A DNA stretch of 64,000 bases. Origin: Crocinitomicaceae bacterium (GTDB lineage Bacteria; Bacteroidota; Bacteroidia; Flavobacteriales_D; Crocinitomicaceae). Made by a program: the position numbers and the translations under genes. The notes below the pieces were generated by a model that was not told the DNA's origin, searched no databases, and saw only the letters and a list, made by a program, of their open reading frames with translations. Below are positions 62,003-64,000 of the stretch, piece after piece. Positions within the stretch are counted from its first letter, which is position 1; each line of letters starts with the position of its first letter. The stretch lies in contig JAQWHI010000020.1 in assembly GCA_029249445.1 (NCBI GenBank), forward strand, positions 1-64,000, in the 5' to 3' direction.

Positions 62003-62331
62003 TTGTTTTTAGATGAACTTCTCCCTATACAATCTAGCAATTCCTCGCATATTTCAAGTTGCTGAAGGATTGTAAAATTCGAGTTCTAAGTAGTATTTTT
62101 AGTGTTGTTGAGTATTCGATTTATTGAATAATTCACATCAGCATTGTACACATACGAATGTACTCAAAAAAGAATAAAAAAATATTCGATCAAATGGTTG
62201 TTTTATTCATCTAATTGTATGGTTTGATAATTGCATAAAATAAAGCGTACCAAAACGCGTCGAAAAGTGGTTATTGATGTAACAATATCAAGTCTGAAAT
62301 TGTTTTAACTGTATGTTCTGAATAGATTTAT
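62003..62331. other. Intergenic region between acyl-CoA ligase and ECF sigma factor
   Basis: This AT-rich region separates divergent genes. I see no long frame, terminator or exact TAnnTTTG match. Weak inverted repeats are present, such as GTACA and TGTAC at 62146-62163, and TATTC/GAATA around 62113-62130. They could be operator sites but are too short to call. Confidence 0.4.
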
Positions 62332-62820
62332 TTGAAAAGAAAAGAGTACAATATTGCGATCAGTAAGCATTCCGATAATTTGTTTGGATATGCGCTGAAA
62401 TTTCTGCGTAATTACCAGGATGCAAAAGATATTGTGCAGGATGTTTCTGAGAAGCTTTGGGTCAATAGAAAAACTGTTGAGCTAAATAAAGCTAAGTCAT
62501 GGATGTTTACCACTGCACACAATGCAATGATAAATTTTTCAAATAGAAAAGGAAGAGTTCATTTGACTAGTGAAATGAAATTCTATGATAAAGGATATGT
62601 AAATCCGGATTCATTTGAGTCAAATCAAGTTGTTGATAGAGCGGTTAGTATTCTTCCGCCTGTTCAGAAAAGTATTATTCTTATGCGAGACCTCGAAGGC
62701 TATTCTTACAAGGAAATAGGGGAGATACTCGATTTGTCAGATGCACAAGTGAAAGTGTATTTGTATAGAGCGCGAAAGAAAATTAAAATGCAGTTAAAAG
62801 GATTGATTGAATTGGTATGA
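62332..62820 (+). CDS. ECF (sigma-70 family) RNA polymerase sigma factor
   Basis: The 162-residue protein is a group 4 sigma factor. Region 2 (about residues 10-75) has LFGYALKFLRNYQDAKDIVQ and KAKSWMFTTAHNAMINF. Region 4 (about 105-155) has LPPVQKSIILMRDLEGYSYK, EIGEILDLSDAQVKVYLYRA, an HTH for the -35 element. It would direct RNA polymerase to a small regulon. The start is TTG at 62332, as no ATG gives a full region 2. The stop overlaps the next ATG (ATGA, 62817-62820), the typical arrangement for an ECF factor and its anti-sigma partner. Confidence 0.93.
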   Translation: MKRKEYNIAISKHSDNLFGYALKFLRNYQDAKDIVQDVSEKLWVNRKTVELNKAKSWMFTTAHNAMINFSNRKGRVHLTSEMKFYDKGYVNPDSFESNQVVDRAVSILPPVQKSIILMRDLEGYSYKEIGEILDLSDAQVKVYLYRARKKIKMQLKGLIELV

Positions 62821-64000
62821 GTACACCTTCATATTCAAATATTGAAATGTGGCTTTTTGAGCTGGCCGAGGGAAATCTTTCTCCTGATCAAATTGCCAAA
62901 TTGGATTTGTTTCTGCTACAAAATCCAGAATTAGATATTGATCGAGACATGTGGGAGTTGGCAAAGGTCAATCCCGAGAATCACATTTACAAAGAAAAAG
63001 AAAAGCTGTTTAAAAGAAAGCCAATTGGACTTTATGGGTTGGTTGGTTCTTTGGTTTTGTTACTCTTTATTTTTGTCGGTTATTCATCGTTTTATTATCT
63101 CTCAAATGAAAATTTAGCGGACGATACAATGGAAACACGAGTGTCTGATTTGCAACTAGAAAATAAAATGTTAAAACAAGAAATTGCAAATTTGAAAAGA
63201 CGTACAGCCCCAACTTCAATCGAAAATGAATCGAGTGAGGAGTTTGTGTCAGAAGAAAAGGTTGTTTCCATTAAATCGAACATCTCTCAGTTATCCGATG
63301 GTGCCTCCTTAACCGAGTTGGTCTCGAAAGAATTTGAGAAAAATGAACAATTCGAGTTGTCTCAGCCTCATCCGGACTTGACTTCGTTAGATCAATCTAG
63401 CACTATTTTATTTAAAGAATTGAATCCAATTTTAATGGTCGGTGCAGCTGAAAAACCTGATAATATGAACGGCGTTCTCCCGAAAGGCTCCAAAACGCAG
63501 CATGTTGATTACGATATGTCTTTCCGAAATCGGTTATTTAAGTTCGGGAGAGTACTTCAGAAAATGATTGACAATCCAATTGCCTTGAAAAATTCTCGAG
63601 ACCCTCAATACCACGTTCCTGGAATGATATCGAGAGACATCAATTTTGGAGCTACTGGAACAATGTCGGCACCAAGAGTTGAAATGTTCTCTCGAATTCA
63701 ATGGTATGGTCAGGAAAATGAATTGATCCAGAATCAACTTGCTATTGATGGATATTCTTATGGTGTAAGAGGGGGAATAGGAGTACAGATGAAGCATGCT
63801 TACTACAATGATGGTGGGATTCAGATTTCAAATGCTGCGTTAACCTATTCGCCAAAATTATCAGTCAATCGATTTTTTTCGATTGAACCTGCATTGCGAT
63901 TTAAAATGGGCAATAAACTGTTGAGTGATTCTAAAATGGAAGATGTTTCCAATGTCGAGATTGATCGCGGCATTGTTCATCAATATTACGAACAAGGAGC
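62817..64000 (+). CDS. Anti-sigma-like transmembrane protein with PorP/SprF-like barrel (partial)
   Basis: The open frame starts at ATG 62817, coupled to the ECF sigma gene, and runs past the right edge (394 residues visible). Residues 1-68 are a small cytoplasmic segment with an anti-sigma-like helical start (EMWLFELAEGNLSPDQIAKL). One membrane helix spans about 70-93 (GLYGLVGSLVLLLFIFVGY). A short coiled coil follows (about 103-130) and then a polar linker. From about 255 the sequence resembles a PorP/SprF outer-membrane barrel (DPQYHVPGMISRDINFGATG, SRIQWYGQENELI, GGIGVQMKHAYYNDGGI). This would let one chain cross both membranes and sequester the ECF factor until an outer-membrane event releases it. 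The C-terminus is not seen. Confidence 0.8.
   Translation, partial: MSTPSYSNIEMWLFELAEGNLSPDQIAKLDLFLLQNPELDIDRDMWELAKVNPENHIYKEKEKLFKRKPIGLYGLVGSLVLLLFIFVGYSSFYYLSNENLADDTMETRVSDLQLENKMLKQEIANLKRRTAPTSIENESSEEFVSEEKVVSIKSNISQLSDGASLTELVSKEFEKNEQFELSQPHPDLTSLDQSSTILFKELNPILMVGAAEKPDNMNGVLPKGSKTQHVDYDMSFRNRLFKFGRVLQKMIDNPIALKNSRDPQYHVPGMISRDINFGATGTMSAPRVEMFSRIQWYGQENELIQNQLAIDGYSYGVRGGIGVQMKHAYYNDGGIQISNAALTYSPKLSVNRFFSIEPALRFKMGNKLLSDSKMEDVSNVEIDRGIVHQYYEQG

Follow-up and report, generated by a model that had tools for sequence, protein, structure and literature searches.

The 64,000-nucleotide stretch of Crocinitomicaceae DNA analyzed here (contig JAQWHI010000020.1 of assembly GCA_029249445.1, positions 1 to 64,000; hereafter the window, G000:C4:1-64000 in our numbering) carries at its downstream end, on the forward strand, an operon encoding an extracytoplasmic function (ECF) sigma factor and a predicted anti-sigma factor fused to a PorP/SprF-type beta-barrel, followed beyond the window edge by a second copy of the core PorP gene that is linked to porU and gldJ in the type IX secretion system (T9SS). 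The operon is a real, conserved system, its architecture being well supported and its regulon modestly so. We interpret these three genes as an autoregulated unit whose anti-sigma factor would span both membranes and read, through its PorP-type barrel, either the loading of Type B T9SS cargo or the supply of PorP, and we place the probability of this explanation as a whole at about 0.4.

In the proposed mechanism, the N-terminal domain of the fusion would keep the sigma factor at the inner membrane. The barrel, tied to that membrane by a linker of 166-275 residues, would be inserted in the outer membrane, where it would resemble a PorP but, having no C-tail cysteine, could not be bolted to the gliding/T9SS track. 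Once Type B cargo is engaged, or when carrier PorP runs short, the periplasmic side of the barrel would change and the sigma factor would be released, directly or by proteolysis. The free sigma factor would then transcribe its own operon, raising the supply of PorP, together with a pair of lipoprotein genes. We infer the binding of the sigma factor, the topology in the cell, the signal and the release step; cargo loading or PorP supply is the likeliest candidate for the signal, if a tentative one, and the barrel may read the state of the T9SS without a protease step.

Architecture of the sigma factor and the fusion protein

The sigma factor gene (62332..62820) encodes 162 amino acids with Sigma70 regions 2 and 4 over the Pfam cut-offs. 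Its apparent start is TTG (TTGAAAAGA-like), not ATG, as at most aligned loci of the genus. Against the nearest NCBIfam model, NF058625 (sigma_PG0214, GFO_1088 family), it scores 123.7 bits, under the cut-off of 130, and nothing in its genome matches that model above cut-off. An ATGA at 62817-62820, described earlier in a first-pass annotation made from the letters of this DNA, forms the overlap with the second open reading frame (ORF). This ORF (62817..64000) is open at the window edge and continues to a stop at contig position 64493, 493 bases beyond, giving a complete protein of 558 amino acids. A third ORF starts 12 bases past the stop with a signal-peptide-like beginning and a PorP N-terminus, and the contig ends inside it at 64698.

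The second protein, aligned with 30 homologues, matches the Pfam family PorP_SprF (PF11751) over residues 280-548 (E 8.6e-13; 48.9 bits for a cut-off of 22.3), as do 28 of 31 fusion homologues (E up to 1e-3). An AlphaFold2 model built from 31 aligned homologues reached a mean predicted local distance difference test (pLDDT) of 77.0 and a predicted template modelling score of 0.58. It begins with three helices (residues 9-17, 23-35 and 37-49), which make up the predicted sigma-binding domain (residues 1-49; 62817..62963) and carry an EGNL motif, E18 G19 N20 L21, invariant across the 31 aligned fusions. A predicted inner-membrane helix (residues 70-96; 63024..63104) coincides with a hydrophobic stretch; each of the 31 rows has one hydrophobic 20-mer, with the N-terminal flank the more positive in 27. 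The next segment (63108..63509) comprises a coiled-coil helix (residues 98-129) and a disordered linker (130-231), with pLDDT under 50 across residues 131-231. The barrel domain (residues 259-549; 63591..64000, on to contig position 64463) shows 14 strands across residues 287-549, mostly at a pLDDT of about 85-97. The helices agree with the membrane helix (about 70-93) and coiled coil (about 103-130) first read from the sequence, and the profile match and the predicted barrel bear out the resemblance of the C-terminal region to PorP/SprF. The protein neither stops soon after the window edge nor lacks a barrel in its predicted structure, the two outcomes that the first-pass annotation had named as counting against its proposal at the level of sequence.

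A Foldseek search with the model returned the porin OmpG as the top match and, further down, chain F of the T9SS translocon entries 8gl6 and 6h3i, which we take to be PorV. The sequence search of solved structures with the fusion gave only weak, unrelated matches. In the alignment, the N-terminal segment of the barrel retains its DP, G and R positions and a DP-N-G-R segment is recognizable, 166-275 residues after the membrane segment. The fusion thus very probably has the architecture of an anti-sigma factor that would span both membranes and that ends in a PorP/SprF-type barrel; its N-terminal domain would bind the sigma factor to judge by its position and by the operon.

Conservation of the operon

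A full-length fusion, defined as a match from profile positions 1-31 through at least 581 of 594, was found in at least 72 of the 299 sampled genomes of the order, which argues against chance and led us to reject a frameshift or assembly artefact as the origin of the fusion. At least 58 of 117 genomes of the same family carry it, and at least 14 of 182 outside (nine in family f3, three in f10, one in f11 and one in f9, the last, G699, being a 60% complete genome in which the match may lie on a stray contig). At least 23 further genomes of the 299 have a partial profile match in a frame of at least 497 amino acids. Some match to the fusion occurs in 56 of 60 relatives, many of them with the stand-alone PorP only. 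In the sample of the phylum (395 genomes, up to three candidates scored in each), the full fusion was present in G000 only among the matches listed.

The order sigma factor, fusion, PorP holds in 18 of 20 fetched neighbourhoods, the others ending inside PorP (L039) or before it (L042). At one locus (L051) the fusion is broken by frameshifts with the order of the three genes intact, and the fusion of G030 falls into three separate ORFs.

The linker of the fusion is long, disordered and weakly conserved, as would be expected if it were cut and the N-terminal half acted as an ordinary anti-sigma factor, the barrel being an independent PorP-like carrier and the fusion merely coupling their synthesis. 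Six aligned short anti-sigma factors of genus relatives, which lack a long C-terminal part, point the same way. We consider this very unlikely, as the one-frame fusion has been kept in those 72 or more genomes, over several families, despite an adjoining stand-alone PorP, and as no signal peptide stands at the start of the barrel, which follows the membrane helix and the linker instead.

A core PorP copy as the third gene

In relatives, the core porP gene sits between a divergent porU (NF033707) and gldJ (TIGR03524). All three genes are visible at 22 fetched loci; one further locus starts inside porP (L165) and that of the present genome ends inside it (L145). GldK, considered as the neighbour of the core PorP, was rejected, the neighbour being GldJ. 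Within each of 14 genomes (14/14), the operon PorP and the core PorP are 61.8-97.5% identical, and the two copies are sisters in the tree within G004, G016, G030, G033 and G055. At the DNA level their similarity (99.2% in G030, 95.4% in G055) starts 36-96 bases into the operon ORF and stops near the stop codon, and would fit repeated duplication or gene conversion of PorP. The last 141 bases of C4 (64558-64698) and of another contig, C10, are identical and lie inside PorP genes, which suggests an assembly fork at two near-identical copies. Because the third gene copies the PorP linked to porU and gldJ, the connection of the operon to the T9SS is stronger than the first-pass annotation could see.

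The 18 fused barrels form one clade (support 100/99) and the operon and core PorPs, 40 in all, a second (98/99) in a tree whose depth is unsure, since long branches meet in it and the fused rows are among them. The two groups also differ at the C-terminus. Cysteines at positions -16 and -4 are present in 18/18 operon PorPs and 22/22 core PorPs and in 0/18 fused barrels, and 27 of 31 whole fusions are cysteine-free. In Flavobacterium johnsoniae, a Cys-Xaa-Cys motif in the C-tail of SprF is described as forming a disulfide with GldK of the moving track only once cargo has been exported and loaded (PMC12635249, seen in part), which indicates that a barrel of the PorP/SprF family can signal to the periplasm that it is loaded. 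By analogy, the fused barrel may make use of such a transmission; missing the C-tail cysteines, it would be held off the track and probably serves as a PorP-like probe with its tether in the inner membrane. The available parts of two further sources describe proteins with a Type B C-terminal domain as bound and carried by PorP/SprF-like proteins (PMC9143113; PMC12618676).

The same absence of the cysteines by which SprF is joined to the track speaks against a sensor of PorP/track stoichiometry, in which the barrel would bind no cargo. It would instead pair or compete with either the core PorP or the GldJ/GldK track, reporting how much PorP or track is free. This alternative draws on the core PorP copy being the sole T9SS gene of the operon, on the two copies being kept alike in several genomes, and on a gldJ-like gene directly after the operon PorP in G036; we judge it unlikely. 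A gene beside the operon that scored as an FGE-sulfatase domain protein (L052) proved to be GldJ-like.

Promoter box and predicted regulon

A predicted ECF promoter, an exact match to TGTAAC-N16-TTGTTTTA, precedes the sigma factor gene at 62278..62307. Upstream of the sigma factor the box occurs with at most two mismatches at all 32 loci (32/32), exactly at 29, and a spacer of 16 is always the best. The exact pattern, minus its last A, matches 77 times in 34 genus genomes, compared with 23 matches for the reversed control; 29 of the 77 belong to the operon itself, one for each of the 29 genomes with the operon (or, on short contigs, with its first part).

Twenty other sites, partly chosen for resemblance, were inspected; 19 come from the 48 matches left and the twentieth contains a mismatch. 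Twelve lie upstream of a conserved lipoprotein gene pair, one upstream of a relative of that pair and five elsewhere; the last two precede another PorP/SprF gene and a gene for a 206-residue lipoprotein. At L248 (G013:C279:11829-11857) the box lies 138 bases upstream of a PorP/SprF gene (PF11751, 147.2 bits), and at G000:C16:27023-27052 (L231) an exact box lies 63 bases upstream of the gene for a predicted lipoprotein of 206 amino acids.

The lipoprotein is present in all 34 genus genomes, and in 25 of the 29 operon-bearing ones the box before the pair has no more than two mismatches. Among the five genomes lacking the operon it is gone (4-5 mismatches) from four (G001, G015, G024 and G025) and retained in G003, a 79% complete genome that may merely miss the operon contig. 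The box occurs in 26 of 34 regions, compared with an average of 0.36 for mononucleotide shuffles and of 0.32 when the box is scrambled. The tree shows two losses of the operon, each accompanied by loss of the lipoprotein box; two loss events cannot reach significance, and the Fisher's p of 0.0017-0.0067 ignores relatedness. The sigma factor probably acts at this box.

In the present genome the pair (L233, G000:C12:283178-284076), which shows a weak, sub-cut-off similarity to CarboxypepD_reg, is preceded by a TGTAAC-N16-TTGTTTTA box and, adjacent to it, a TGTAAC-N17-CGTACGA box, both ECF-like, which gives the impression of being read by two sigma factors. The second (TGTAAC-N16/17-CGTACGA) is kept in G001, G015 and G024.

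A predicted regulon made up of the lipoprotein pair and the operon, rather than of T9SS core genes, would also suit a sensor of outer-membrane assembly. The barrel would then be a bait which, upon failure of the barrel assembly machinery (BAM) or of the outer membrane, is not inserted, the protein being degraded and the sigma factor freed; the PorP type of the barrel would matter little. The fused barrel has indeed diverged far from PorP, and Dma1 and Dma2, anti-sigma factors of the same layout, are reported in the available part of PMC13088901 to act on outer-membrane vesicle formation. We nevertheless hold this explanation to be somewhat doubtful: the fused barrels remain one PorP-type clade, if one with long branches, the DP, G and R positions are retained, and the third gene is the core T9SS PorP, not a gene for BAM, a chaperone or a protease.

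Comparison with known systems

The first-pass annotation had likened the fusion to the Dma anti-sigma factors. In layout the likeness stands, on the strength of the profile, the model and the conservation: the fusion is predicted to share with Dma a sigma-binding N-terminal domain, one membrane helix, a long disordered tether, a C-terminal beta-barrel and an adjoining ECF sigma factor gene. It differs in its 14-stranded predicted PorP/SprF barrel and in the PorP copy as third gene. Descent lends the likeness no support as judged from two proxy loci with OMP_b-brl_2 barrels, which were compared in place of Dma1-3 and Das1. Dma proteins are paired with an adjacent cognate sigma factor of group ECF21; an adjacent sigma factor is present here and is only 22.6% and 24.2% identical to those of the proxies. 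Because of this distance, the dual-membrane layout is likely of separate origin from Dma, as far as the proxies represent it.

Instead, the sigma factor groups with ten sigma factors paired with other anti-sigma factors (40.8-45.9% identical), in a tree of moderate supports (93/92 for the joint group). Six of the ten anti-sigma factors were inspected and scanned, none of them showing a Pfam barrel match. The N-terminal motif region is common to all seven that were aligned, and the six from genus relatives contain a second copy of it. Seven loci (L132-L138) were considered as a canonical short Dma and rejected: of the seven, four were scanned and none of these gave a Pfam barrel match, and in the alignment a pair of EGNL-like repeats is followed by a membrane stretch and by only a short C-terminal part. 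A further weak profile match (L142) is an HU-domain protein. In two loci of other families in the phylum sample (L139 and L140), sigma and anti-sigma factor genes are followed by a separate OMP_b-brl_2 barrel gene, possibly an unfused form of the same idea.

With the PorP/SprF carriers, as described in the available parts of PMC9143113, PMC12618676 and PMC12635249, the fusion shares the Pfam barrel family and the DP-N-G-R segment. Unlike them it has an anti-sigma domain, a membrane helix and a linker in place of a signal peptide, and no C-tail cysteine. No Type B cargo gene adjoins it, whereas a CHU_C gene stands immediately upstream of four of the genome's six other complete stand-alone PorP genes.

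Like the fusion operon, the PorXY-SigP system of Porphyromonas gingivalis ties an ECF sigma factor to the T9SS, and PorA, secreted to the cell surface, has been proposed as an input to SigP regulation (PMC7712824, seen in part). According to the same source SigP is activated through a two-component system; the fusion operon would need none, relying on its barrel-bearing anti-sigma factor. The SM6 promoters of Flavobacterium psychrophilum are ECF-type and lie upstream of T9SS genes and of an ECF/anti-sigma pair; they differ in sequence from the TTGTTTTA box, and the available part of that paper does not describe the SM6-linked anti-sigma factor as a barrel protein (PMC9723704). No anti-sigma factor with a PorP/SprF barrel or a CHU_C domain appeared in open-access titles and abstract openings, a literature outside which most subscription papers and preprints lie.

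A second putative anti-sigma factor outside the window, and T9SS cargo within it

Outside the window (G000:C12:309734-311054; L115:1435-2824), the gene for a 178-amino-acid ECF sigma factor with regions 2 and 4 overlaps that for a predicted anti-sigma factor of 287 amino acids ending in CHU_C, a Type B signal domain. This protein is near-full-length in 21 of 34 genus genomes, with CHU_C in 20 of 20 aligned members, and a sigma-like ORF of 149-180 amino acids overlaps or abuts it upstream in 19 of 19 relatives. Its model is confident in the CHU_C part only. It occurs also in G001, G015 and G024, all without the PorP fusion, and therefore neither anti-sigma factor needs the other. There is a slim chance that the genus mounts the two partners in the T9SS Type B handshake on anti-sigma factors, the carrier barrel on one and the CHU_C signal on the other. 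If true, the secretion machine would sense for transcription at both ends, through cargo docking on a barrel and through the pull on a tethered signal domain.

Four T9SS substrates or remnants had been listed in the window. Three type A tails were found (C4:7001, 30131 and 42617), no fourth, and none of the genome's 29 CHU_C matches lies on C4. The genome's 86 type A matches in 2.33 Mb correspond to about 2.4 in any 64 kb, so the three seen are no enrichment, and these substrates were dismissed as background density rather than evidence. An adjacent T9SS cargo gene as partner of the operon was likewise rejected, the inspected neighbours being housekeeping or unrelated genes.

Discussion

Several results weigh against a system that reads T9SS cargo loading or PorP supply. 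Regarding the barrel, the fusion scores 51.5 bits against TIGR03519, under the cut-off of 90.55, and the fused barrel is only 21.7-27.8% identical to the core PorP (13 genomes), so that cargo binding may be lost. The SprF motif is Cys-Xaa-Cys, whereas the PorP cysteines stand 12 residues apart. No cargo gene adjoins the operon in the neighbourhoods inspected, nor does any T9SS core gene stand at the box among the 20 other sites, the operon's own PorP apart. Regarding the regulon, the lipoprotein box is poor (three mismatches) in four operon-bearing genomes (G002, G006, G017 and G019), about six box changes fall on the tree for two operon losses, and in G025 the second, neighbouring box is gone as well. 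Finally, a two-mismatch scan of the genome itself gave 59 box matches and 76 for the reversed control, and a regulon drawn from it was rejected for want of any excess.

If the proposed reading is true, a PorP/SprF barrel and a sigma-binding domain in one molecule would form a wire from secretion state to transcription. The comparison with Dma suggests that the dual-membrane anti-sigma layout would have arisen more than once, and the conserved promoter box and small predicted regulon make the system testable.
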